Positions 10,576 through 46,844 of a stretch of DNA of 64,000 bases are shown one piece after another. Source of the DNA: Flavobacterium sp. MC2016-06 (GTDB taxonomy: Bacteria > Bacteroidota > Bacteroidia > Flavobacteriales > Flavobacteriaceae); NCBI RefSeq assembly GCF_009711165.2, contig NZ_WMID02000020.1, positions 40,412-104,411 on the forward strand, in the 5' to 3' direction. The notes under the pieces were generated by a model. That model saw only the letters and a list, made by a program, of their open reading frames with translations. It searched no databases and had not been told where the DNA came from. The position numbers were made by a program, and so were the translations under genes. The stretch's first letter is position 1, and every line of letters begins with the position of its first letter.

Positions 10576-11859
10576 ATGCAGCAAATTACAGAAACCAAAA
10601 AAAAGTCATTTCTTTCAGGATTAACGGGGCAGATTTTAATTGCAATGTTCCTTGGAGCTATTTTAGGAATTATATTGCACAATTCGATTTCGCCAGAAGC
10701 TACAGAATCATTTAGTACTAAGATAAAAATGCTTGCGACTGTTTTTATTCGTTTAGTACAAATGATTATTTCGCCTTTAGTTTTTACCACTTTAGTTGTG
10801 GGAATTGCAAAATTGGGAGATATAAAAACAGTAGGAAGAATTGGAGGAAAAGCACTTGGCTGGTTTTTTACAGCGTCTTTTATTTCATTATTAATAGGGT
10901 TATTTTATGTAAATGTTCTACAGCCTGGAGTTGGTTTGAAACTAGCTCATGTAGATATGGCATCAGCTTCAGAAGTAACGGCTAAGACTCAAAATTTGTC
11001 TTTCGAAAACTTTGTTGAACATATTGTTCCTAAAAGTATAATTGAAGCAATGGCAACTAATGAAATTTTACAAATTGTAATTTTTTCTATTTTCTTCGGA
11101 TTGGCTGCTGCATCTTTAGGGAATTCTGTGAAACCAGTAATTAATGCATTAGATAAAATATCGCACATTGTTTTAAAAATGGTGAACTATGTAATGAATT
11201 TTGCTCCAATTGGAGTTTTTGGAGCTATTGCGGCTGTATTCGCTGTAAGAGATGCAGAAGAACTATTAATTACCTATTTTAAATTTTTCGGTTCTTTTTT
11301 ACTTGGAATAGGAACTTTATGGCTGGTTTTAATTTTAGTTGGTTTTATTTTCTTAAAAGGAAGAATGGTCGAATTATTAAAACGTATTGTTGGACCTTTA
11401 GCAATTGCCTTTGGTACAACGAGCAGCGAGGCTGTTTTCCCTAAATTAACAGAAGAATTAGAAGCATTTGGGGTTAAAGATAAAATCGTATCTTTTATGT
11501 TGCCATTAGGTTATTCGTTTAATCTAGACGGAAGTATGATGTATATGACTTTTGCCAGTATTTTTATTGCTCAATTCTATAATGTACATTTAGATTTAGG
11601 AACACAAATGGCAATGCTTTTGGTTTTAATGTTAACCAGTAAAGGAATTGCAGGTGTACCAAGAGCAAGTTTAGTTGTGGTAGCAGCAACTTGCGGTATG
11701 TTTAAAATTCCTATTGAAGGAATTGCACTTATTTTACCAATTGATCACTTTTGTGATATGTTTAGAAGTGCAACAAATGTTTTAGGAAATGCTTTGGCAA
11801 CTTCTGTTGTAGGGCAGTGGGAAGATGATAAAGAAGTTGAAATTCCTTCAGAAAATTAA
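10576..11859 (+). CDS. Dicarboxylate/amino acid:cation symporter (DAACS family)
   Basis: An inner-membrane secondary transporter of 427 aa in the GltP/GltT/DctA family, which takes up glutamate, aspartate or C4-dicarboxylates with Na+ or H+. It has eight or so hydrophobic stretches. The re-entrant loop motifs are visible: the serine-rich AFGTTSSEAVFPKL (HP1) and GYSFNLDGSMMYMTFASIF (TM7), then SKGIAGVPRASLVV (HP2). The length and motif order are standard. The substrate cannot be told from the sequence. It ends 25 bp before a strong terminator. Confidence 0.93.
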   Translation: MQQITETKKKSFLSGLTGQILIAMFLGAILGIILHNSISPEATESFSTKIKMLATVFIRLVQMIISPLVFTTLVVGIAKLGDIKTVGRIGGKALGWFFTASFISLLIGLFYVNVLQPGVGLKLAHVDMASASEVTAKTQNLSFENFVEHIVPKSIIEAMATNEILQIVIFSIFFGLAAASLGNSVKPVINALDKISHIVLKMVNYVMNFAPIGVFGAIAAVFAVRDAEELLITYFKFFGSFLLGIGTLWLVLILVGFIFLKGRMVELLKRIVGPLAIAFGTTSSEAVFPKLTEELEAFGVKDKIVSFMLPLGYSFNLDGSMMYMTFASIFIAQFYNVHLDLGTQMAMLLVLMLTSKGIAGVPRASLVVVAATCGMFKIPIEGIALILPIDHFCDMFRSATNVLGNALATSVVGQWEDDKEVEIPSEN

Positions 11860-12492: not shown

Positions 12493-14685
12493 ATGTTTCA
12501 TTATAGATTTTGTTTTTTAATTTTTGTTTTTCTAAATATATTCTGTCTTAAGTCATCGGCTCAGACTAGTACTATATCGATTGCAAAGGTTAAAGATTTG
12601 ACTAAACAGGCTTGTGATTATTTAGATGAAACTAATTACGAAAAATCCTTAAAGAAATCTGGAATTGCTCTGCACTATGCGTTCAATCTGAAAAATGATA
12701 CCTTGATTGCAAGAAACTACAATATAATCGGGATTAATTTTCATGATTTAGGCGAAGTTGATAAGGCAGCTTTTTTTTATAAGAAAGCATTATTCTATGC
12801 AGAGCGATCTAATATTGTTAGTTTAAGGATGATGATAACCAGTAATTTAGGGAATTTGTATTTTTTTGAAAAAAAAATGTATAATGTAGGCATTACCTAT
12901 TACAAGGAGTCATTGAAATTTGGCAAGCAGCAAAAATATTTAAAAGAAATTGCTATAACGAACCTTAACATAGTTTGGTCGTATTTTAAAATTGAAAATT
13001 ACAAAGAGGGATTTCCTTATTTAAAATACATTAATGAGCATCAAAATGATTTAAAAGGCAGGTCAAACGATATTGCTTTAAATTTTTTAAACGGAATGTA
13101 TTGGTCGAATGAAAATGATAATGAAAAGGCAGATAAATATTTTTTAAAAGCGGTTTCTTTTAGTCATTCCGAAGATGAAATACAGGATTTGTCTTATGCA
13201 CATTTAGAGTATTCGAAATTTTTGGCTAAGATTGGCAAACATGATCAGGCTTATTCCCATTTGCTTACTTACAATCAAATAACACAGCAGATTTATAATG
13301 ATGAGAAACTGAAAAAAGCCGCTGTTGCGGGCTTTAATCTAGAATTGAACGAATACAAAAGACAAATTGATAAGATTGAAAATGAAAAATCAATGCAATA
13401 TCAAAGTCTGAAAAAATCGAGAATCATTGTAGTTTTATTTGTGCTGATCTCCTTTATTCTGCTATTCTTGATTATTACGTTGGTTAAGAATATTAGATAC
13501 AAAAAAGAACATAATTTAGAGCTTCTGCGAGCAAAAGAAATGGCAGAAGAAGCTTCTCTTCTCAAAACACAATTTATTTCGACTATAAGCCACGAATTGC
13601 GTACGCCGCTGTATGGCGTTGTTGGAATAACCAACATGCTGCTCGAAGAACATAAAGAATTATCGCGCAGCCAGCATTTGAGTTCGTTAAAATTCTCAGC
13701 AAGATATTTATTGTCCTTAGTAAATGATCTTCTTCAAATTAATAAAATTGAAGAAAATAAAGTTGTATTAGAAAATCTGACTTTTAATATTTCAGATGAA
13801 ATTACAATGATTAAAAATTCGCTTTCTTTTTTATCACAAAAGAACAATAACAAAATTACGATAGAAATAGATCCTAATATTCCTGAATACTTAATTGGAG
13901 ATAAACTGCGTTTAGCTCAGGTTTTGATGAATTTGGTTAGTAATGCATTAAAATTTACTAAAGACGGAGAAGTTGAAATCATTATAAAACTTAGTAAGGT
14001 AGAAGGAAAACTGCATTATTTAGATTTTCTTATAAAAGATAATGGTGTTGGAATTGCAACTGTAGATCAAGGTAAGATTTTTGAAAAATTTGTTCAAGTA
14101 GGAAGAAAGGAAGAAGATTACCAAGGAACAGGATTAGGTTTGAGTATTGTAAAACGACTGCTGGGACTTTTTGGAAGCACAATTAGTTTAGAAAGTGATA
14201 TTGGTGAAGGAACTGCTTTTTCTTTTATTATTCCTTTTGAGCACGATCCTCTAAAAACAAAAAAAATTATTGAAGAAATTGAAGTTGATTTAACTTCAGA
14301 CGAAATTTATAAGATTTTGATTGTTGAAGATAATCATATCAATCAGTTGGTTACCAGAAAGATAATTGAAAAAAATAATTATATCTGCCATGTTGTAGAT
14401 GATGGTTTTGGAGCTCTGAAAATATTAGAAGACGAAAAGTTTGATCTTATTTTGATGGATATTAATATGCCCTTGATGAATGGATTTGAAACAACAAAAA
14501 GAATACGTCTGCAAGGAATTTCAACGCCGGTTGTAGCTTTAACAGCTTTTGATAAAGATGAGATCACAGATGAAGCTATTTCGTCTGGAATAAATGATAT
14601 TATCATTAAACCGTTTGAGCCTGTAAAACTGTTTAAAATTATGAATTACTTAATAAAAGAAGCCGAAAAAGTTGATTTACTATAA
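12493..14685 (+). CDS. TPR-domain hybrid histidine kinase/response regulator
   Basis: A 730-aa one-protein phosphorelay. A signal peptide (to about residue 24) is followed by a periplasmic region of tetratricopeptide-like helices (about 30-290), one membrane helix (about 306-331), a HisKA domain with the phospho-acceptor His367 in ISHELRTPLYG, an HATPase domain (NLVSNALKF, DNGVGI, GTGLGLSIVKRL), and a receiver domain with Asp656 in LILMDINMPLMNG. There is no DNA-binding output, so the signal must pass to another protein. TPR sensor regions of this type probably sense a protein or peptide partner. It has its own promoter and is divergent from the double-glycine peptide gene. Confidence 0.9.
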   Translation: MFHYRFCFLIFVFLNIFCLKSSAQTSTISIAKVKDLTKQACDYLDETNYEKSLKKSGIALHYAFNLKNDTLIARNYNIIGINFHDLGEVDKAAFFYKKALFYAERSNIVSLRMMITSNLGNLYFFEKKMYNVGITYYKESLKFGKQQKYLKEIAITNLNIVWSYFKIENYKEGFPYLKYINEHQNDLKGRSNDIALNFLNGMYWSNENDNEKADKYFLKAVSFSHSEDEIQDLSYAHLEYSKFLAKIGKHDQAYSHLLTYNQITQQIYNDEKLKKAAVAGFNLELNEYKRQIDKIENEKSMQYQSLKKSRIIVVLFVLISFILLFLIITLVKNIRYKKEHNLELLRAKEMAEEASLLKTQFISTISHELRTPLYGVVGITNMLLEEHKELSRSQHLSSLKFSARYLLSLVNDLLQINKIEENKVVLENLTFNISDEITMIKNSLSFLSQKNNNKITIEIDPNIPEYLIGDKLRLAQVLMNLVSNALKFTKDGEVEIIIKLSKVEGKLHYLDFLIKDNGVGIATVDQGKIFEKFVQVGRKEEDYQGTGLGLSIVKRLLGLFGSTISLESDIGEGTAFSFIIPFEHDPLKTKKIIEEIEVDLTSDEIYKILIVEDNHINQLVTRKIIEKNNYICHVVDDGFGALKILEDEKFDLILMDINMPLMNGFETTKRIRLQGISTPVVALTAFDKDEITDEAISSGINDIIIKPFEPVKLFKIMNYLIKEAEKVDLL

Positions 14686-27534: not shown

Positions 27535-29010
27535 TTAGTGTCCTCCGCCTTCGCTTGTAACGTGGCTTACGCCTTGACTTTTTAATATTTTAGGGCAGTA
27601 GAAACCATAAAATGCTAAATATGCAAAACCAATAAGCGGTACGATGTATGAGAAGTGTGTGTAAGTAATACCTAAAATTCCTTCTGGATGTGTTACGTCT
27701 AAATCGCAGATACTTCCTTGTACTAATGGAATAACACCACCACCAAGAATCATCATGATTAAGAAAGAAGATGCTTTTCCTGTGTTTTTTCCTAATCCAG
27801 CGATTGCTAAATCGAAAATAGAAGGCCACATAATTGATAAGAATAAACCACCTGAGATAAAGAAGAATTTTGCAATTGATGGATCTGGACAAACTAATCC
27901 AGCAACCATCATTAATAAACCTGATATTCCGAAAAGCATTAATGTTTTTCCGGCATTTTTACCTCCTACAAAACTTACGGCAATAAATAATAAAATCCAA
28001 AGCGGGTAAATGTAGAATGAAGAAACATCATGTGCAGCAAAAATGTTAGCTCCGATAATAACACCAAATCCTAGAGCCGGAACGATAAATTTAAGTGCGA
28101 TGTTTACTAAGTTTGATGTATTGAAAACATTTGCGCCGCCATTCCAACGACCAATCATTAAACTTCCCCAATATAGTGCAATAAATGGGGCAACAGCATC
28201 TTCTAAGATACTTCCGAATTCTTTAGTTTTTAATAATGCTGGTAAATTACTAATGATTGTAACCTCTGTTCCAACATAAATAAAGATACCTAACATTCCC
28301 AGGTATAATTGTGGGTAGTCTAAAATGCTGAATTTAGCATGTTTGTGCTCAATTATTGCTTCTTCTTCAGTTATTTTAGCTGGATCTTCAATTTTAGAAA
28401 AATACATAAAAATAGCCACTAGAATAAATGCAAGACCTAAAATGATAAAAGGTAATTTGATATCTTCTAATGAAAGGTTTGTTTTTTTGTTGTCTCCCAT
28501 TCCAAAAAGAGCAATTCCTAATAAGATTGCACCAATAGTTGTTCCGAAAGAGTTTATACCTCCTGCTAATGTTAAACGGTGTGCTCCAGTTTCTGGACTT
28601 CCCATTTTAATAGCAAGCGGGTTGGCAACAATTTGCTGAATAGAAAACCCTAAACCTACAGTAAACAAAGCTGTTAAGAAGAATGGGAAGCTTTCCATTG
28701 TTGCTGCCGGGATAAACAAAAATGAACCTACTGCAGAAAGTAATAATCCTGCTGATAGGGTTTTTTTGTATCCGAATTTTTGTAATACGTCTGATTTTAG
28801 TGAAACTAAAAAGAAGATTATTGATCCTACAAAGTATGCAGCGTAAAAAGCCCAAGCTACTAACTGTGATTGAACTTGTGATAAAGTAAATACTTTTTTG
28901 AATACTGGAATCAGGATATCATTGGCTGAACCAACAAAACCCCAAAAAAAGAAGACGATTATCAACGAGATAAACTGTCCCCATTTGGTTTGAACATTTT
29001 CTGAACTCAT
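27535..29010 (-). CDS. FucP-family sugar MFS transporter, probable GlcNAc importer
   Basis: An inner-membrane transporter of 491 aa with about twelve helices. The N-terminal FFFWGFVGSANDILIP is a signature of the FucP/GluP family, whose members include NagP GlcNAc permeases. Position next to the chitin-locus regulators and on their strand suggests that it brings GlcNAc released in the periplasm into the cytoplasm. The histidine-glycine-rich C-terminus (SEGGGH) is unusual but short. Fucose, glucose or galactose as substrate cannot be ruled out from sequence alone. Confidence 0.85.
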   Translation of the reverse strand: MSSENVQTKWGQFISLIIVFFFWGFVGSANDILIPVFKKVFTLSQVQSQLVAWAFYAAYFVGSIIFFLVSLKSDVLQKFGYKKTLSAGLLLSAVGSFLFIPAATMESFPFFLTALFTVGLGFSIQQIVANPLAIKMGSPETGAHRLTLAGGINSFGTTIGAILLGIALFGMGDNKKTNLSLEDIKLPFIILGLAFILVAIFMYFSKIEDPAKITEEEAIIEHKHAKFSILDYPQLYLGMLGIFIYVGTEVTIISNLPALLKTKEFGSILEDAVAPFIALYWGSLMIGRWNGGANVFNTSNLVNIALKFIVPALGFGVIIGANIFAAHDVSSFYIYPLWILLFIAVSFVGGKNAGKTLMLFGISGLLMMVAGLVCPDPSIAKFFFISGGLFLSIMWPSIFDLAIAGLGKNTGKASSFLIMMILGGGVIPLVQGSICDLDVTHPEGILGITYTHFSYIVPLIGFAYLAFYGFYCPKILKSQGVSHVTSEGGGH

Positions 29011-29195
29011 AATTGAATAGAAGTAAGGTTAATTTTTTTATTTAATTTGTTTTTTGAAGACCGTAAATATATTTGTTAGACGTATCAAAAAAAAATTATT
29101 GGGCACAAAAAATGTTAAATTTAAACCAACGGCACTATTTTTTCAACAAAGTGTTAATTTTTAAGCTCTTAAAAAATGAAGTTTGCAATTGCATT

Positions 29196-29897
29196 TTATT
29201 CCAAAATCTTGTTTTTTACCTCTTTACTGTAGTTTCTGCCTATAGGAATGGTGTAAGATTGTATCTGAATACGGTTTCCTTCTATAGATTTGACCTTATT
29301 TAGGGCAATTACGTAAGATTTATGAATGCGTAAGAAACGATCTGCCGGCAATTCTTCAGACAAAGAGGTCAATGATTTGTGGGTAATATAGGTTTTATCT
29401 GGAGTTACAACCTTTATATATTCTTTCATTCCTTCGACGAATAATATTTCTTCAATATTAATTTTCATCATCTTTTTGTCAACCTTAATAAAAATATGAG
29501 AATCGCCTTTGGTGGTTTCTACTTTTATATTGTTTTTTAGATTAAACTCGGTTGTGATTTTATTGATACATTTTATAAATCGCGGTAACGGAATTGGTTT
29601 TACTAAATAATCTAACACATCTAGATCATAACTTTCTGCGGCAAATTCTCTAAAGGCAGTTGTAATAATAACTTTGGTTTTGCTTTCGATTAAGCTAATT
29701 AATTCAAAACCAGTCATCATTGGCATATTGATATCCAAAAAAACAGCATCAACAGGAGTATTGTTGATAAAATCTAGCGCTTCTAAAGAATTATTGAATG
29801 TAGCAACTACCTCAAAGTCTGTAAAATTGGTGAAATAATTTTGCAGGACTTTGATAGCTAATGGCTCATCATCAATCAACACGCACTTAATCTTCAT
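29196..29897 (-). CDS. LytTR-family response regulator of the chitin locus
   Basis: A DNA-binding response regulator of 233 aa. The receiver domain (1-120) has acidic residues Asp9 and Asp10, phospho-acceptor Asp55 (VFLDINMPMMTG) and Lys100 (DYLVKP). The LytTR domain (about 130-230) includes KMMKINIEEILFVEGMKEYIK and FLRIHKSYVIAL. It overlaps the sensor gene by 11 bp, the sign of a tightly coupled pair. The two susC promoters across the divergent region carry direct repeats with a 21-bp period, a spacing LytTR proteins favour, so this is the likely activator. Confidence 0.92.
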   Translation of the reverse strand: MKIKCVLIDDEPLAIKVLQNYFTNFTDFEVVATFNNSLEALDFINNTPVDAVFLDINMPMMTGFELISLIESKTKVIITTAFREFAAESYDLDVLDYLVKPIPLPRFIKCINKITTEFNLKNNIKVETTKGDSHIFIKVDKKMMKINIEEILFVEGMKEYIKVVTPDKTYITHKSLTSLSEELPADRFLRIHKSYVIALNKVKSIEGNRIQIQSYTIPIGRNYSKEVKNKILE

Positions 29898-30996
29898 TAT
29901 TGATAGGTATTTGTAAACGGATTATGTAGTAATTTAGTTTAGTTTTATGTTTTAAACTGAAATCGCTTTTGTAAATTAGTTTTAATCTCTTTTTTGTATT
30001 GACTAATCCAATACCACCTTTATGATTTATATTTTGTGAAATTACAAAATTATTTAGGATTTCAAAATCTAACATTTTATTGTCAATAACTTTACAATTG
30101 ATTTTAATTTTTAGATTTTTATTGTTTAATCCGCCATGTTTAAAAGCATTTTCTACCAATGATATAAATATTAGCGGCGGTACTACAACATCTTCAATAT
30201 TAGATTCGAGGTTAATGGTAACTTCCACATTCTCAAAACGAAGCTTCTCAATCTCGATATAATTCTGTATATAATCTATTTCTTTTATGAGCGGGACATA
30301 TTTTGTTCCTTTTACATCATACAAAACATACTCCATTAGATTGGATAATTTGATAATCACATCTGGAACTTTGTTTGAAGATTCTAATGAAAGTGCGTAA
30401 AGATTGTTTAAGGTATTAAAAAAGAAATGTGGCTGAATTTGATTTTCGAGATACTTCAGTTTGATTTTAAATTGATTTTCTCTCAAAGAACGGTTTCTTT
30501 CTCGTTCTCTCAGCCAAGTCAAAGTAAGGTATACAGACGATGCCATGGCAAGAACATACAATTCGCCAATACAGACTGCTACAATATGATTGATTTCAAA
30601 CGGATGGTATTCGCGATTAGCTTCTGGCCAAATATTTTCGGATATAATATAATAGGTAAGAGCTGTTTTTAATAAATAGACACAAAACAGGCTTGCTAAT
30701 AGTGCAATGGTGTATTGAATGTATTTCTGTTTTAAAACAAATTTTCGAACTAAAACGAAAAGATTAAAATAAACCAAAGGGATATGAAGTGAAAACTCAA
30801 TAAGATTTGATTTGAATGAATACGGGTAATCGTTGAAGTAAGCGCCCCATCTTAAAAAATTAAGAGTAAAATAACTTCCCCAAAACCAAATATGATTCTG
30901 GAGTTTTATGTCAAACTTTAGTTTTTGAATTTCTTTCAAGTTTAAAATGTGAGTTGGGGTTAGTGTTATTTGCTCTTTTGGATAAATATTGTGCAA
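29887..30996 (-). CDS. LytS-type sensor histidine kinase of the chitin locus
   Basis: A 369-aa membrane sensor of the His_kinase (LytS/YehU-like) family. About four membrane helices lie between residues 37 and 162, then a short linker and the kinase core with phospho-acceptor His190 in QIQPHFFFNTLNNLYAL. The ATP-binding part has ISLVENAFKHG and GGIGLVNTKKRL. It lacks a large periplasmic sensor domain, so it may sense a membrane-imbedded partner or a small ligand. The response regulator overlaps its 3' end. Confidence 0.92.
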   Translation of the reverse strand: MHNIYPKEQITLTPTHILNLKEIQKLKFDIKLQNHIWFWGSYFTLNFLRWGAYFNDYPYSFKSNLIEFSLHIPLVYFNLFVLVRKFVLKQKYIQYTIALLASLFCVYLLKTALTYYIISENIWPEANREYHPFEINHIVAVCIGELYVLAMASSVYLTLTWLRERERNRSLRENQFKIKLKYLENQIQPHFFFNTLNNLYALSLESSNKVPDVIIKLSNLMEYVLYDVKGTKYVPLIKEIDYIQNYIEIEKLRFENVEVTINLESNIEDVVVPPLIFISLVENAFKHGGLNNKNLKIKINCKVIDNKMLDFEILNNFVISQNINHKGGIGLVNTKKRLKLIYKSDFSLKHKTKLNYYIIRLQIPINNED

Positions 30997-31080: not shown

Positions 31081-31090
31081 AACGTTTTCG
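31081..31090. promoter_or_regulatory. AACGTTTTCG element upstream of susC1
   Basis: A half-palindromic AACGTTTTCG lies 27 bp before the first operator repeat. The equivalent at susC2 is a perfect 12-bp palindrome (GAAAACGTTTTC, 37271-37282), again 27 bp (37282-37309) ahead of the repeats. It looks like a second regulator site. Confidence 0.5.
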
Positions 31091-31116
31091 TAAAACCGTA
31101 TTGTTGATTGTTTTAT

Positions 31117-31186
31117 GTCGTTTGTTTAACGTTTGGAGCTGTTTGTTTAAAAAGTTTTATTTATGTTAATTTTAACAATAAATTTA
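31117..31186 (+). promoter_or_regulatory. susC1 promoter with paired operator repeats
   Basis: Direct repeats GTCGTTTGTTTAA (31117-31129) and GCTGTTTGTTTAA (31138-31150) have a 21-bp period. Twenty-eight bp further is a -7-like box, TAAATTTA (31179-31186). No -33 TTG is present, so activation is expected. The same arrangement occurs at susC2. Confidence 0.75.
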
Positions 31187-31205: not shown

Positions 31206-34200
31206 ATGATAAAAATGAAACAAAAGACTTTAATCTTCATGATTTTTTTTATTTCTCAGCTCATGCTGGCACAAGTAAAAACAGTCAAAGGTTTAGTAAC
31301 TGATCAAAAAGGATTGCCGTTGCCAGGGGTAACAGTTCTTGTTCAAGGAACAGTAAAGGCAAGTCAGACAGATTACGATGGAGTGTATGCAATAGAGGCA
31401 TCAAAGAATGATGTACTATTATTCTCATACATTGGGTTTAAAACTAAAGCGGTAACAATTGCAGATGCAGCTCAATTGAATGTTACGCTTGTAGAAGATG
31501 CGCAAAATCTTAATGAAGTTGTAGTAACGGCATTAGGGATTAAGAGACAAAAGAAAGAATTGGGATATGCAGTTCAAGATGTAAAAGGAGACCAATTAAG
31601 CAAAGTAATTACAACCAATGTGGCAACAGCACTTTCGGGCAGAGTTGCTGGTGTTGATGTTTCTATACCTGCAACTGGTGTGGGCGGAAGTACAAGAGTT
31701 ATTATTAGAGGTATTTCGAGTATAGGCGAGAGTAATCAACCGCTTTATATTGTAGATGGAGTTCCTATTGATAATTCTGGTTTGGCTAATGACAGTGCTG
31801 CAACGAGTAAATGGTTTGATGGAAGAGATAGCGGTGACGGAATTTCTAGTATTAACCCTAATGATATTGAAAGTCTTACGGTTTTAAAAGGAGCTGCAGC
31901 TGCAGCATTATATGGCTCTAGAGCGTTAAATGGTGTAATTTTAATAACTACTAAAAAAGGTACTAAAGGAAAACTTCAGGTCGAATTAACCAGCGGCGTA
32001 AGTTTTGACAGAGTAAATGCTAAATATGATGATTATCAAAGTGATTATGGTACAGGTTCTAACGGTATTCTGCCAGATCCTACAAAAGCGCCTTCTGAAA
32101 TATACGGTTATACTACCAATGCTTGGGGACCTAAATTTTCTGAAAGTGTAGGACAACAGGTTAAAATATTTGATGGCTCTATGAGACCTTATGCTAAGGT
32201 TAATAATAATATTCAGGATTTTTTTAGAACTGGATTTACAACTACAAATGGTATTGCACTTTCTGGCGGAAGCGAAAATGCATTTCTTCGTTTTGGATTT
32301 AATAATCTTAAAAATGACGATGTAATTCCAAACACTGGTTTAGAGAGAAATAATGCAACCTTAAATGCAACTTTAAAATCTGAGAAATTTACTTTGGATG
32401 CCAACGTAAATTATATGGTTGAGAATACAAATAACAGACCAGGGTTAGGCGATTCTCCAAACAACGTTGGATATTCTTTAAGTGGTTTAGCGCCTAATAT
32501 TGATCAAGCTTGGTTGAAAAATTATACGAACCCAGTTGACGGATCAATGTACCAATGGAATAATAATGTTTATTTATTGAATCCTTATTTTGTTATCAAT
32601 GAAAACCATAATACTTCTAAAAAGAATCGTTTTATGGGGAATGTTACAGGAACGTATCAGTTTAAAAAATGGGTTGGATTAACTTTTAGAACAGGTTTAG
32701 ATACTTACGTTTTTGATGCTAAAGATTTTATGGCTGGCGGCAGTACTTGGCCAGGAAGAGATAATGGTTATATGGGATTGGATAATATTACTGTTTCTGA
32801 AATGAATACAGATGTTATTGCTACTTTTAGTGAAATTAAATTGGCTTCAGATTTTACTTTTTCTGGAATTTTAGGAACAAGCAGAAGAGATTTTAGAAGA
32901 CAAGAAAATTCTAGATTTGGAACTAATATTATCGAACCGGGTACAGAATATATTAGTAATTTTTCTAATCAGACAGAAAATGCACCATCAGAAACTAAAA
33001 CGCGAACAAACTCCGTTTATGGTTCTGCAAAGTTTGATTATAAAGGATATCTATATGCCGAGTTTACAGGAAGAAATGACTGGTTTAGTGTAATCAATAA
33101 AGATGCATTTTATCCTGCAGCTTCATTAGGTTTTATATTCTCTGATGCGTTAGGAATTAAGAATGATACTTTTTCTTATGGTAAATTCAGAGCATCTTGG
33201 GCGCAAGTTTCTAATGCACCGGGAGCTTACAAAAATGCATTAAATTATACTACTTATTCTTCTTATAGCGGTGGAAGTGTTGTAAATATTAAAAATACTT
33301 CGGCACCAAATCCAGATTTAACCTATCAGTCTAAAACGGGAGTTGAATTTGGGGTTGAAACGGCTTTCTTTAAAAATAGATTAAAAGCTGATATTACAGT
33401 GTATCGTGAAGATACTGCAGATCAAACTATAGATTTACCTTCGTCTGCAACTTCTGGTTACGAATTTATTTCGGTAAATGCGGGTAAACTTCGTAATGAA
33501 GGTATTGAGATCTTTTTATCTGGTACTCCTATTAAAACTAAGAATTTTGAATGGGGAATTGACTTGAACTTTTCTAAGAATAAAAACTCTATTCTTTCTT
33601 TGCATCCAGATATTGATACTTATACTATTTCTGAGGCTCGTTGGGCTGGTGCTGCAATTGTGGCTCAGGTTGGCGGACAATATGGAACTATTATTGGAAA
33701 AGATTTTCAAAAAACACCTTCTGGAGAAATGATAGTGGGTGCAAATGGTCTGCCTTTATTTACAGATAATAAAGTGGCTTTAGGAAAAGGGTTACCAGAT
33801 TGGGCAGCAGGTTTAACAAACCGTTTTTCTTATAAAGGAATTACATTTCAATTTTTAATTGATATGAAATTTGGTATGGATGTATATTCTATGACCAATT
33901 CACTTGCCGCACAAAAAGGTCTTTTAGATGTTACTACAGAAGGTAGAGATGCTTATAACGAAGCTAGAGCGCAAGCAGTTGCAACAGATCCTAATTTCAG
34001 CCAATCAACTTGGATACCTACAGCAGGTTATGTAGCTCATGGTGTTGTTAATACAGGAACTGCTGAAAATCCGGTATATGTAAAAAATACAACTCCTGTA
34101 AATCCTCAGGATTATTGGAACACCGTTTTTAATAATACACCAGCACCATTTATTTATGATGCTTCTTATGTAAAATTAAGAGAAGTAAGTTTGGGATACA

Positions 34201-34403
34201 CAATTCCGAAAAGTATTTACAGCGGCGCAAAAATTAACTCGATTTACATTTCAGCATTCGCAAGAAACTTATTGACTTTTAATAAAGATTTGCCAAACAT
34301 TGATCCAGAGTCTATGTATACTTCAGGAAACGGACAAGGTTTTGAATATGGTTCGTTACCATTTAGAAAATCATATGGGTTTAATCTTAAAGTTACATTC
34401 TAA
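31206..34403 (+). CDS. SusC-like TonB-dependent outer-membrane transporter 1
   Basis: A 1065-aa oligosaccharide importer. A signal peptide ends near AQVKTVKG, then a carboxypeptidase-regulatory-like domain (about 25-105, GLVTDQKGLPLPGVTVLVQG), a TonB-box-like NEVVVTALG, the plug domain (about 115-250, ISSIGESNQPLYIVDGVP and LKGAAAAALYGSRALNG), and a 22-strand barrel that ends in KSYGFNLKVTF. The first codon could be the ATG at 31206 or 31215. It starts the susC1-susD1-GH18 operon and imports, by context, chitin oligosaccharides together with the SusD lipoprotein. Confidence 0.95.
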   Translation: MIKMKQKTLIFMIFFISQLMLAQVKTVKGLVTDQKGLPLPGVTVLVQGTVKASQTDYDGVYAIEASKNDVLLFSYIGFKTKAVTIADAAQLNVTLVEDAQNLNEVVVTALGIKRQKKELGYAVQDVKGDQLSKVITTNVATALSGRVAGVDVSIPATGVGGSTRVIIRGISSIGESNQPLYIVDGVPIDNSGLANDSAATSKWFDGRDSGDGISSINPNDIESLTVLKGAAAAALYGSRALNGVILITTKKGTKGKLQVELTSGVSFDRVNAKYDDYQSDYGTGSNGILPDPTKAPSEIYGYTTNAWGPKFSESVGQQVKIFDGSMRPYAKVNNNIQDFFRTGFTTTNGIALSGGSENAFLRFGFNNLKNDDVIPNTGLERNNATLNATLKSEKFTLDANVNYMVENTNNRPGLGDSPNNVGYSLSGLAPNIDQAWLKNYTNPVDGSMYQWNNNVYLLNPYFVINENHNTSKKNRFMGNVTGTYQFKKWVGLTFRTGLDTYVFDAKDFMAGGSTWPGRDNGYMGLDNITVSEMNTDVIATFSEIKLASDFTFSGILGTSRRDFRRQENSRFGTNIIEPGTEYISNFSNQTENAPSETKTRTNSVYGSAKFDYKGYLYAEFTGRNDWFSVINKDAFYPAASLGFIFSDALGIKNDTFSYGKFRASWAQVSNAPGAYKNALNYTTYSSYSGGSVVNIKNTSAPNPDLTYQSKTGVEFGVETAFFKNRLKADITVYREDTADQTIDLPSSATSGYEFISVNAGKLRNEGIEIFLSGTPIKTKNFEWGIDLNFSKNKNSILSLHPDIDTYTISEARWAGAAIVAQVGGQYGTIIGKDFQKTPSGEMIVGANGLPLFTDNKVALGKGLPDWAAGLTNRFSYKGITFQFLIDMKFGMDVYSMTNSLAAQKGLLDVTTEGRDAYNEARAQAVATDPNFSQSTWIPTAGYVAHGVVNTGTAENPVYVKNTTPVNPQDYWNTVFNNTPAPFIYDASYVKLREVSLGYTIPKSIYSGAKINSIYISAFARNLLTFNKDLPNIDPESMYTSGNGQGFEYGSLPFRKSYGFNLKVTF

Positions 34404-37270: not shown

Positions 37271-37282
37271 GAAAACGTTTTC
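37271..37282. promoter_or_regulatory. GAAAACGTTTTC palindrome upstream of susC2
   Basis: A perfect 12-bp palindrome. It is placed as the AACGTTTTCG element of susC1 is, just ahead of the operator repeats. The form is like that of LacI-family operators. Confidence 0.55.
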
Positions 37283-37308
37283 GAAAAGCATATTATTGAA
37301 TGTTTTAT

Positions 37309-37378
37309 GTCGTTTGTTTAAAGTTTGATGTAGTTTGTATAATTTATTTTTTTTAACAATGCCTTAAGAATAAATTTA
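37309..37378 (+). promoter_or_regulatory. susC2 promoter with paired operator repeats
   Basis: Repeats GTCGTTTGTTTAA (37309-37321) and GTAGTTTGTATAA (37330-37342) have a 21-bp period, followed after 28 bp by TAAATTTA (37371-37378). All distances equal those at susC1, although the surrounding bases differ. Confidence 0.75.
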
Positions 37379-37404: not shown

Positions 37405-40400
37405 ATGAAAAAAATTTTCTTAATCTTTATGATTGTTTTTACGGCGCAGGTTTCGCTTGCACAAGTAAAAAGTGTCAAAGGTGTGATTACAGATTCTGAA
37501 GGGATGCCGTTGCCAGGGGCATCTGTTGCTGTGCAAGGAGGTCAAAAAGGTTCTAGTACCGATTTTGACGGATTGTATACAATTGAAGTACAAAAAGGGC
37601 AAACATTAGTTTTTACTTATGTTGGTCTAGAAACGCAAAGTATAGTTGTGGGTGATGCAGCTACAATTAATGTAAAATTGTTACCAGCAGCATCAAACGC
37701 ATTAAATGAAGTTGTTGTAACTTCATTAGGTATTAAGAAAACAAGAAAATCTTTAACATATGCCGCTCAAGAGCTTAAAGGCGAAGAATTAACACGTGTA
37801 AAAGATGCCAACGTTATCAATACAATAGCAGGTAAAATTGCCGGTGTAGCTGTAACAAAAAGTTCAGGTGGTACAGGTGGTTCTACAAAAGTTCTTATTC
37901 GTGGAAACTCTTCTGTTTCAAATAGCCAGCCATTGTATGTTATTGATGGTATTCCGATGTTAAATTCAGGTTCAGGTCAGCCTAACGATACATTTGGTAG
38001 TTTATCTGGTGGTAACCGCGATGGTGGTGATGTTGTGTCTTTAATTAACCCTGATGATTACGAAGGAATGACAGTACTTAAAGGTGCTGCAGCTTCTGTT
38101 TTATATGGTAGCCAAGGAGCAAATGGTGTAATTTTACTTTCTTCTAAAAAAGCTAAAGACGGAAAAGCTAATATTTATGCTTCTTCAGTAACAACTTTTG
38201 AATCTGCTGCATATTTACCTAAATTTCAAACAGATTATATTGCTGCTCCAGGAGCTGATGAAAGCTGGGGAGCTGCTGGAAAATCAAAAGATCACGTAAA
38301 AGATTTCTTTAATACAGGAACAACTCAAATTACTTCTATCGGATATTCAATGGGTACTGATAAAAGTTCTACCTCTTTTTCTTATGCTAACACTTCTGCT
38401 ACAGGGATTATTCCAGGAAACAGTTTAAAGAAAAATAACTTTGGTATTCGTCAGACTGCTAAGTTTTTGAATGATAAATTGACTTTTGGGGCAAATGCAA
38501 ACTACACGTCTCAAACTATTGCAAACAAGCCAGTTAATGGATTTTATTTTAACCCTCTTACAGGAGTTTATTTAATGCCAAGAGGAAATGACTTTAATTA
38601 TTACAAAAATAATTATGAAGTTTTTGATCCAACTAGAAACTTAATGGCGCAAAATTGGATGACTAATAGAGATATTATGCAAAACCCATATTGGGCAATA
38701 AACAGAAATAAATCTGAAGATAAAAATGATTTCTTTAACGGATCTTTATCTTTAAACTATAAAGCTAACAATTGGTTAAGCATTGCTTCAAGATACAGTT
38801 ATAATAGAGTAACAAGTGCTTTTGATAAAAAGATATATGCTACAACTCAAGGTACACTTTCTAACATTAATGGTAGATATATCAATGAAAATTCATTAAG
38901 TACACAACGTTATGCAGATTTAATTGCTACAATTAATACAAAAATTGGTTCAAACTTCAGCTTTAATGCAAATATCGGAACAAGTATTACTAATACTTTA
39001 ACGAATCAAAAAACAATTTTAGATTCAGGAATCAGCTCAGGATTAATATATGCTAACTGGTTTACATTAGCAAACTTTGTAAATAACTCTGGAAATTATC
39101 AAACTATTGATTCTAGAAGAGAAGTTCAGTCTGTATTTGCAGCTACAACATTTGGTTACAAAGATATGTTATTCTTAGACCTTGCAGGAAGAAATGATTG
39201 GTCATCTACATTATCAAATACAGGAACACCAAGTTATTTTTACCCATCAGTTGGTGTAACTGCACTTATCAGCGAAATGACAACATTACCAGATTGGATT
39301 AATTTTGGAAAAGTTCGTGGTACTTATGCTCAAGTTGGTAACGATATTTACCCTTTTATTTCATCTCCAACATACCTTTACAGACCAGGTTTTACAGATC
39401 CAAAACCAAGTGCTGGACCTAAAAATGGTACTACTTTAAAACCAGAATTAAAATCGGAATATGAGTTTGGTACAGAGTGGAGAATGTTTAATAACAGATT
39501 TGGTTTCGAAGTTTCTTACTACAATTCTGAAACTAAAAACCAATATTTACAAGTTGTTGCACCAGTAGGAAACCAAGAAGGTGTTGATTTTTACGGTTTT
39601 AATGCAGGAAGTATTGAGAATAAAGGTTTTGAGGTTGTGTTAAATGCAGGAATTATAAGAGGAGATAAATTTTCTTGGGATACTTCTATTAACTATTCAC
39701 ATAATAAAAACACAGTTAAAGAGCTTCCAGATAATATTGGAAACAGAGTTAATTTAACAGAAGCTGGAGTAAACGGTTATAGATATGCATTAGTGGAAGG
39801 AAGACCTTATGGAGTAATTGAAGGTATTAACTTTAAAAAAGATGCTCAAGGAAGAATTTTATTAAATGATGATGGAACAATTCAAAGAACAGATTTTCAA
39901 GAAGTTGGAAATTCTAATCCAGATTTTATGTTAGGTTGGTCTAACTCATTTAAATTAGGTTCATTCTTCGCAAATGTATTAGTTGACGGTCGTTTTGGTG
40001 GTGATGTAATGAGTTTAACAGAAGCACAAAATGATTCATTTGGAGTTTCTAAAGCTTCAGGAGATGCAAGAAATGCTGGTGGTGTTGCGATCAATGCAGT
40101 AAGAGCAAGTGATGGAGTAGCAGTAACATCAATGGATGCAAAATCTTACTACACACAAGTAGGAGGAAGAGCAGGTATTACAGGTGAATATGTTTATTCT
40201 GCAACAAACGTAAGTTTAAGAGAGGTTTCTATTGGATATAATTTTAATCGTAAAGCAATACCTTTTGTTAATACAGCAAGTATTTCATTAATCGCTAGAA
40301 ACTTATTCTTTATCTACAAAGATGCACCGTTCGATCCAAATATTGCATTAAGTACTGGTCAAGGGTTACAAGGGGTAGACATTTATGGCTCACCATCTAC

Positions 40401-40437
40401 AAGAAGCATTGGTCTTAATTTAAATGTAACTTTCTAA
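37405..40437 (+). CDS. SusC-like TonB-dependent outer-membrane transporter 2
   Basis: A 1010-aa second oligosaccharide importer. The signal peptide ends near [10 protein letters not shown]; the carboxypeptidase-regulatory-like domain (about 22-100, [20 protein letters not shown]), TonB box (NEVVVTSLG), plug ([19 protein letters not shown]) and barrel (ending GLNLNVTF) are complete. The first 130 residues resemble transporter 1 closely, while the barrel is quite different, so the two pairs probably handle different chitin fragments. It has its own promoter with the same operator as susC1. Confidence 0.95.
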
Positions 40438-46309: not shown

Positions 46310-46369
46310 GAGAGTTTGGTTTGAATTAGTATTCAAGTATGTTAAGATTGCCTTTATTGATTTAAAATT

Positions 46370-46404
46370 TTATCTCTGCCAGGTTTGGTTTCTGGCGGAG
46401 ATAA
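46370..46404 (+). terminator. Hairpin after the GH20 gene, probable terminator
   Basis: TTATCTCTGCCAG pairs with CTGGCGGAGATAA (one G-U). The T-rich tail is weak (TTTATC). It would separate the GH20 transcript from chiA. Confidence 0.6.
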
Positions 46405-46844
46405 TTTATCGCAGAAGCAAAAAATTAACCCACTTTTTCAGACTTTAAAATAAAAAAAGAAACATAACCGAGATATAAAAAAGATTCATTAACCCTTTAA
46501 AAACCCAGCATAACCATAAATACTTCCCAAAAGTATACTAAAACATGACAACAAAATAGAATTTTAGATTGATGAGTTACCCCCAAATTTATCTTTTTAT
46601 TTATTACAATTTTTTAAAAGAAATTATACATAAATATCAATCAATACTATTTGCAAATGATTATGGTAGAATCATTAATAGTAATATTTATTTATAGAAG
46701 TAATACAAATTTATTTCCAGCAGATTGCAATGTTATCTATTTGCAGTTGGTTGAATCCTAGTTATAGTATTTATGTACTGCATTTTAGTATGTAAGGTGC
46801 TGTAATTAGAATGTTTATTTTCTATTAACCAATATTTATTAATT
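46405..46844. other. Leader region of chiA without a gene
   Basis: AT-rich stretch of about 440 bp. It must hold the chiA promoter, but neither a perfect TAnnTTTG box nor the paired GTCGTTTGTTTAA operator of the susC promoters was found. The long untranslated stretch is notable. Confidence 0.4.

Follow-up and report, generated by a model that had tools for sequence, protein, structure and literature searches.

The chitin utilization locus contained in the 64,000-nt stretch of Flavobacterium sp. MC2016-06 DNA analysed here (the window) raises the question of which regulator acts on its two susC operons and through which DNA sites. The locus is of the F. johnsoniae type, with the gene order given in PMC5127042, and encodes an MFS transporter, a LytTR response regulator (CusR), a PF06580 kinase (CusS), two susC/susD-like pairs, a GH18 protein, a fused glucosamine isomerase/deacetylase, a GH20 protein and the long GH18 protein ChiA. 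CusR gave the only DNA-binding domain match (Pfam-A) among the 11 genes of the locus, in a genome with 28 LytTR matches, and was found to be a LytTR response regulator with a receiver, a C-terminal LytTR domain and a phospho-acceptor Asp. The acceptor, at position 55 in this CusR, is D in 143 of 146 aligned loci, one genome contributing several of them; the remaining three are all from genome G413.

Direct repeats upstream of the two susC genes

The original prediction had described, before both susC genes, two 13-bp direct repeats with a period of 21 bp followed after 28 bp by TAAATTTA, and this arrangement was confirmed base for base (Table 1). The paired pattern gave 2 matches in the window and 0 in 100 shuffles, and in the 6.17-Mb genome the exact operator pattern was present at two places only, the susC1 and susC2 promoters. 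With up to 3 mismatches, 55 places were found versus 68 for a reversed-pattern control, and since the control gave more, the places beyond the exact ones are at chance level. Outside the two susC promoters, the genome has a single place that fits the paired pattern with 1 mismatch, at 39665-39695 on the minus strand of contig C5 (L003 in G000). In a profile scan of both strands of the 64-kb window the susC sites scored 41.9 and 40.0, the next score being 16.9. A third element (E0), absent from the first reading, lies 21 bp upstream of each susC pair. Written as a 10-nt repeat, GTTNGTWTAA with an 11-nt spacer is exact in both promoters and in the genus pattern, and falls within the 9-11 nt repeats and 11-13 spacer nucleotides published for almost all LytTR response regulators (PMC4847170).

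A weak operator-like pair (GTCGTTCAGCTAA / GCTGTTTGTAGAT) without a -7 box was also observed just behind chiB, at 37082-37049 on the minus strand; when the corresponding intergenic stretches of 36 relatives were scored, L054 alone gave a similar value.

Table 1. Genes and promoter elements in the window (H1 and H2, half-sites 1 and 2; E0, third phased element).
Feature	Position	Strand	Sequence	Remarks
MFS transporter gene	27535..29010	-		Third predicted target; Fjoh_4565 by gene order; PF07690 3.8e-15
-7 box, MFS promoter	29064..29071	-	TATATTTA	Exactly 49 bp after H1 (= 8+13+28)
H2 slot, MFS operator	29100..29112	-	TTTTTTGTGCCCA	Degenerate
H1, MFS operator	29121..29133	-	GCCGTTGGTTTAA	
E0, MFS operator	29142..29154	-	ACACTTTGTTGAA	
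CusR, response regulator	29196..29897	-		Receiver and LytTR domain (PF00072 1.1e-19, PF04397 1.7e-21); proposed binder
CusS, PF06580 histidine kinase	29887..30996	-		Start codon uncertain; match of many relatives begins at residue 10-20
Palindrome-like element, susC1	31081..31096	+	AACGTTTTCGTAAAAC	Conserved; upstream of E0
E0, susC1 promoter	31096..31108	+	CCGTATTGTTGAT	21 bp upstream of H1
H1, susC1 promoter	31117..31129	+	GTCGTTTGTTTAA	
H2, susC1 promoter	31138..31150	+	GCTGTTTGTTTAA	
-7 box, susC1 promoter	31179..31186	+	TAAATTTA	28 bp after H2
First susC-like gene (susC1)	31206..34403	+		CusC II by gene order, naming after PMC5127042
Palindrome-like element, susC2	37274..37289	+	AACGTTTTCGNAAAAC (form given for both promoters)	Same element; upstream of E0
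E0, susC2 promoter	37288..37300	+	GCATATTATTGAA	
H1, susC2 promoter	37309..37321	+	GTCGTTTGTTTAA	
H2, susC2 promoter	37330..37342	+	GTAGTTTGTATAA	
-7 box, susC2 promoter	37371..37378	+	TAAATTTA	
Second susC-like gene (susC2)	37405..40437	+		CusC I by gene order, naming after PMC5127042
chiA leader	46310..46844	+		Without paired operator

Conservation of the letters and of the geometry

A kinase search with one genome per species gave 118 relatives, of which 80 loci were kept. Comparison with these related chitin loci, one of the checks proposed with the original prediction, placed the operator in 80 of 80. The sites were collected by a score that demands a period of 21 and the half-site letters, and these two features are therefore partly by construction in the 80 loci. 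Removal of two register-shifted duplicates (L046 11606 and L082 11203) reduced 128 sites to 126, the two of the window included. Box distance was not a selection criterion; in all 126 sites exactly 28 bp separate the second repeat from the start of TAnnTTT, the repeats lying directly upstream of this putative promoter core. The -33 box, described as missing in the original prediction, is fairly so described, the -33 slot containing TTTT in 125 of the 126 sites. GTTNGT of the first repeat varied at no position other than N, which is T in 49, C in 40 and G in 37 sites; the half-sites were near-invariant as a whole, with drift at position 7, in most of the 8-bp spacer and in the outer flanks. One consensus for LytTR sites is GTTNRK. 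The GTTNGT core is compatible with it, N being the free position, but LytTR sites are described in PMC4847170 as having no common consensus. In none of the 126 sites did E0 depart from C at position -20 or from T[AG]TTGA at positions -15 to -10; its commonest form at susC-type promoters is AC[GA]..ATT[AG]TTGA.

The genes behind the 124 sites of the 80 loci were susC2 (69), susC1 (48), nagB (5), GH20 (1) and none of these (1). The five nagB sites belong to loci without a second susC/susD pair (L047, L057, L072, L088 and L090), and the operator goes with transcription units rather than with susC. Four loci with a short chiB-nagB gap (L091, L093, L099 and L100) have no second operator. In L079 the first operator, at 11226, has no known locus gene behind it; since a second operator stands at 14002 before susC2, approximately 2.7 kb of other DNA seems to have been inserted.

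A related operator, overlooked in the first reading, precedes the transporter gene (start 29010) at 29154-29121 on the minus strand. H1 read G..GTTNGT in 80 of 81 transporter promoters (the window's own and those of 80 loci), the remaining one having A for the second core G. The element ACAC[AT]TTGTTGAA was found 21 bp upstream of the half-site with the same free position, a spacing partly by construction since E0 and H1 were located by letters and spacing. The box was not so located, and TAnnTTT stood exactly 49 bp after the half-site in 81 of 81 promoters, which is the slot expected with a decayed H2 between. The transporter promoter, belonging to a different gene, is a further instance of the same geometry, and the transporter gene is a probable target.

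The exact operator with its box was present in 81 of 299 Flavobacterium genomes, the reversed control giving 0 in every row. CusS was detected in 94 genomes (E 1e-120) and CusR in 96 (E 1e-80). Operator and CusR occurred together in 80, the operator only in 1, CusR only in 16 and neither in 202 (Fisher p 3.6e-55, for related species whose counts are not independent). The operator-only genome, G600, is 70% complete, and its promoter lies downstream of pnp (L251). Among the 16 CusR genomes without the exact pattern, 12 contained a near-match that is clear and has its TA..TTT box at 28, while the stretch searched in G441, G510, G650 and G691 yielded no convincing one. The operator-plus-box pattern was also observed at another promoter in 8 of the 299 genomes, 7 of them with CusR; in L251 and L252 it follows pnp, and the genes behind it encode an unknown protein and a receptor-like protein of 920 aa.

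Three genomes (G413, G571 and G617) contained only C-terminal CusS fragments beside CusR; CusR, nagB and an operator of the same geometry were kept, and no susC/susD match was found in the stretches searched. The CusR phospho-acceptor is D in G571 and G617 and E in G413, one genome only. The G413 locus (L253) thus combines a CusS fragment and a CusR with E at the phospho-acceptor with an intact operator before nagB. D53E has been used as a phosphomimetic in YpdB (PMC4847170), and it is possible that the G413 CusR is a naturally constitutive regulator.

Other genera of the same family were scanned with the genus profile over 38 kinase-susC (or nagB) intergenic regions, with every period from 17 to 25 and every box distance from 22 to 34 (L105 was left out as too close). 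The mean best score peaked at (21, 28) with 9.74, followed by (21, 27) with 2.78 and (18, 28) with 2.59; in single loci (21, 28) was best in 19 of 38, another geometry scoring higher in the other 19. The letters differ in these genera (for example GTTGTCTATATAA / GTAGTCTATATAA in L118) and the layout is kept; by eye, AAAATCACTTATCG or a similar sequence stands at the E0 position in many of the loci. A motif-free scan of periods 13-35 in 39 loci gave the highest mean at period 21 (8.67), a small margin over period 19 (8.51), and 23 of the 39 loci reached 9 of 12 matches at period 21, against 15 for the next best. When the search for CusS relatives (E 1e-70) was widened to the class, 8 of 395 genomes gave a match, none of them from outside this family.

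The candidate regulator

The original prediction had proposed that CusR activates both susC operons through the repeats. This proposal gains support from the published LytTR spacing, from the presence of CusR in 80 of the 81 genomes with the operator, and from the persistence of the operator with CusR in the three genomes with CusS fragments. Conservation, fixed geometry, co-occurrence with CusR and the three CusS-fragment genomes together make the sites very probably a CusR (LytTR) operator. We place at roughly 0.87 the probability that the repeats are the operator of the neighbouring LytTR regulator CusR, activating the two susC operons, with a variant before the transporter gene, as read from sequence comparison.

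A chitin-derived signal would lead CusS to phosphorylate CusR, protomers of which would sit at H1 and H2, sites whose spacing of two helical turns suggests that they share one face of the DNA; E0, a further 21 bp upstream, would probably be a weaker third CusR site. In F. psychrophilum the sigma-A box TAnnTTTG occupies positions -12 to -5 (PMC9723704), and by this rule the susC1 start is predicted at approximately 31191, with H2 at about -53 to -41 and H1 at about -74 to -62. Binding at H2 would place CusR against RNA polymerase, whose -33 contact would be a T run only, and CusR so placed would activate both susC operons. The transporter would be served by a variant operator with E0 and H1 kept, the H2 slot decayed and the -7 box unshifted. 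An F. johnsoniae mutant deleted for cusSR no longer grows on chitin (PMC5127042).

These promoters may be served by a further factor, as 120 of 126 susC-type sites have CGTTTTCG of the palindrome-like element just upstream; none of the 5 nagB sites and none of the 81 transporter promoters contain it, and the element is possibly a second regulator's site. The repeats themselves could then be bound by another regulator, encoded elsewhere, with CusSR acting upstream of that regulator. This is improbable, however, given that the operator tracks CusR almost one to one in the 299 genomes, including the three with CusS fragments, that the spacing fits LytTR sites and that the single Pfam-A DNA-binding match of the locus is CusR itself. 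The two susC promoters are also alike outside the repeats (around E0, the palindrome and the -7 box), as would be the case if the shared sequence were a mere remnant of susCD duplication, kept by recent descent or gene conversion. Yet the spacer and outer flanks diverge while the half-sites stay, the operator occurs before nagB or GH20 where susC was lost and before the unrelated transporter gene, and other genera keep the same mean geometry with altered letters, all of which renders such a remnant very unlikely. Slightly less credible still is an upstream promoter element read by RNA polymerase itself, with which the fixed distance to the -7 box and the A/T-rich flanks would agree; a sequence with two exact copies in 6.17 Mb, almost confined to species that encode CusR, is unlike a general promoter element.

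With CusR as the preferred binder, a wider reading can be offered tentatively, at somewhat less than even odds. CusR-type promoters of the Flavobacteriaceae would follow a rigid grammar, E0-21-H1-21-H2-28-TAnnTTTG, with three helically phased LytTR sites whose letters drift with the regulator and whose spacings stay fixed. H2 would replace the -33 contact, decay of a slot (H2 before the transporter) would tune promoters from basal to strictly inducible, and the D55E CusR of a kinase-less lineage might drive the operator constitutively.

That LytTR regulators bind direct repeats separated by 11-13 nt is established (PMC4847170, PMC4227749, PMC6193735). The operator resembles that of YpdB/yhjX in E. 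coli in its tandem direct repeats and its LytS/LytTR-type pair, CusR binding being predicted here, and differs in that YpdB has the motif GGCATTTCAT and two sites (A and B), no third phased element being described in the available portion of PMC4847170. Like the AgrA sites at agr P2 and P3 it consists of two direct repeats upstream of promoters with suboptimally spaced core elements; the AgrA site is centred at about -60 whereas the H2 centre lies at about -47 from the predicted start, and the sigma consensus differs (PMC4227749). As in LytTR Regulatory Systems (LRS), the repeat letters are poorly conserved, whereas the repeats vary little in length, in spacing and in their location ahead of the promoter, and Bacteroides LRS-like examples have an 11-bp spacer above TATCTTTG boxes (PMC6193735). 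An LRS, however, is a self-regulating operon of a regulator and a membrane protein (PMC6193735), whereas CusS and CusR form a kinase/response-regulator pair next to a polysaccharide locus. Membership in the LRS was rejected, the partner of CusR being a PF06580 histidine kinase and no inhibitory membrane protein. The F. johnsoniae chitin utilization locus has the same gene order and the same CusS/CusR pair, and the main text of the paper describing it contains the word promoter 0 times and no operator or promoter analysis (PMC5127042). Titles and abstract openings of the papers listed in open-access literature searches described no operator for CusR or its regulon, and none for a LytTR regulator controlling a polysaccharide utilization locus. 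The third phased element and the family-wide geometry are possibly new features. A defined operator provides a regulon (two susC operons and the transporter) and a searchable pattern, and the fixed geometry a concrete activation model for promoters that have a TAnnTTTG-like box but lack TTTG at -33. The operator also raises directly the question of how chiA is switched on without one.

chiA and other elements

The repeat had been reported as lacking from the chiA leader, and this was borne out by the absence of the paired operator in 23 of 23 leaders. A conserved chiA operator was rejected, the best pair score over the 23 leaders being 2.6, reached in the window, versus a minimum of 30.7 for the profile-building sites. 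The leader in the window contains a lone half-site-like GCAGTTGGTTGAA at 46743-46755 (score 12.3, the minimum of true halves being 11.4). It is not conserved: the other 22 leaders reached at most 7.2 (L092, at another position), and L038 has a one-letter variant at the same place (6.1). The chiA leaders carry conserved blocks of their own, and the GH20-chiA gap opens with a strong hairpin at ∼46370-46404 (-23.3 kcal/mol for 80 folded bases), which may be a terminator ahead of chiA. The F. johnsoniae cusSR deletion lost ChiA, whereas the other mutants impaired in chitin use, apart from that in chiA itself, showed as much ChiA in the medium as the wild type (PMC5127042). The suggestion that chiA is controlled in another way stands as far as the operator is concerned; yet, since ChiA is lost in the cusSR deletion, chiA is under CusSR by some route, be it read-through, a different CusR site or an intermediate regulator. 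Since ChiA needs CusSR while chiA is without the operator, the published cusSR phenotype does not rest on the operators alone.

The palindrome-like element was also considered as a global operator and rejected: the longer form occurred at 1 genome place (susC2) versus 2 in the control and the shorter form at 67 genome places versus 142 in the reversed control, and no regulon was found.

A general LytTR grammar was not supported either, the genus profile giving -7.87 for (25, 28) versus -8.64 for (21, 28) in the 18 loci of a second LytTR family. The histidine kinases of this family are 37-44% identical, and the copy in L192 lies beside a GH92 gene; in L192 (G000 C5) and its relatives the kinase/LytTR pair is divergent from the GH92 gene and a weakly symporter-like gene, and the layout looks similar by eye. 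A profile of the chitin-locus sites of other genera places a similar layout in many second-family loci, which the independent genus-profile grid does not support; the logo of the other-genera-profile run was drawn from 35 of 39 loci, L109, L114, L128 and L173 being left out. A mixed profile, built partly on sites read from that run, was applied to the 28 LytTR loci of this genome, and only CusR's own locus, via the transporter site, exceeded the background maximum (17.6 vs 16.9). The background was taken without two values of L136, which lies within this locus (36.8 for the susC2 site and 23.3 for 37082-37049, minus). Beside two other LytTR genes of this genome, direct repeats with a period of 20 were observed, GTCGTCTGTCTAT / GTTGTTTGTCTAT at 2244-2276 of L163 (G000 C59) and CGTTGGTATAA twice at ∼3220-3260 of L161 (G000 C16), the first copy of the latter lying inside a palindrome.
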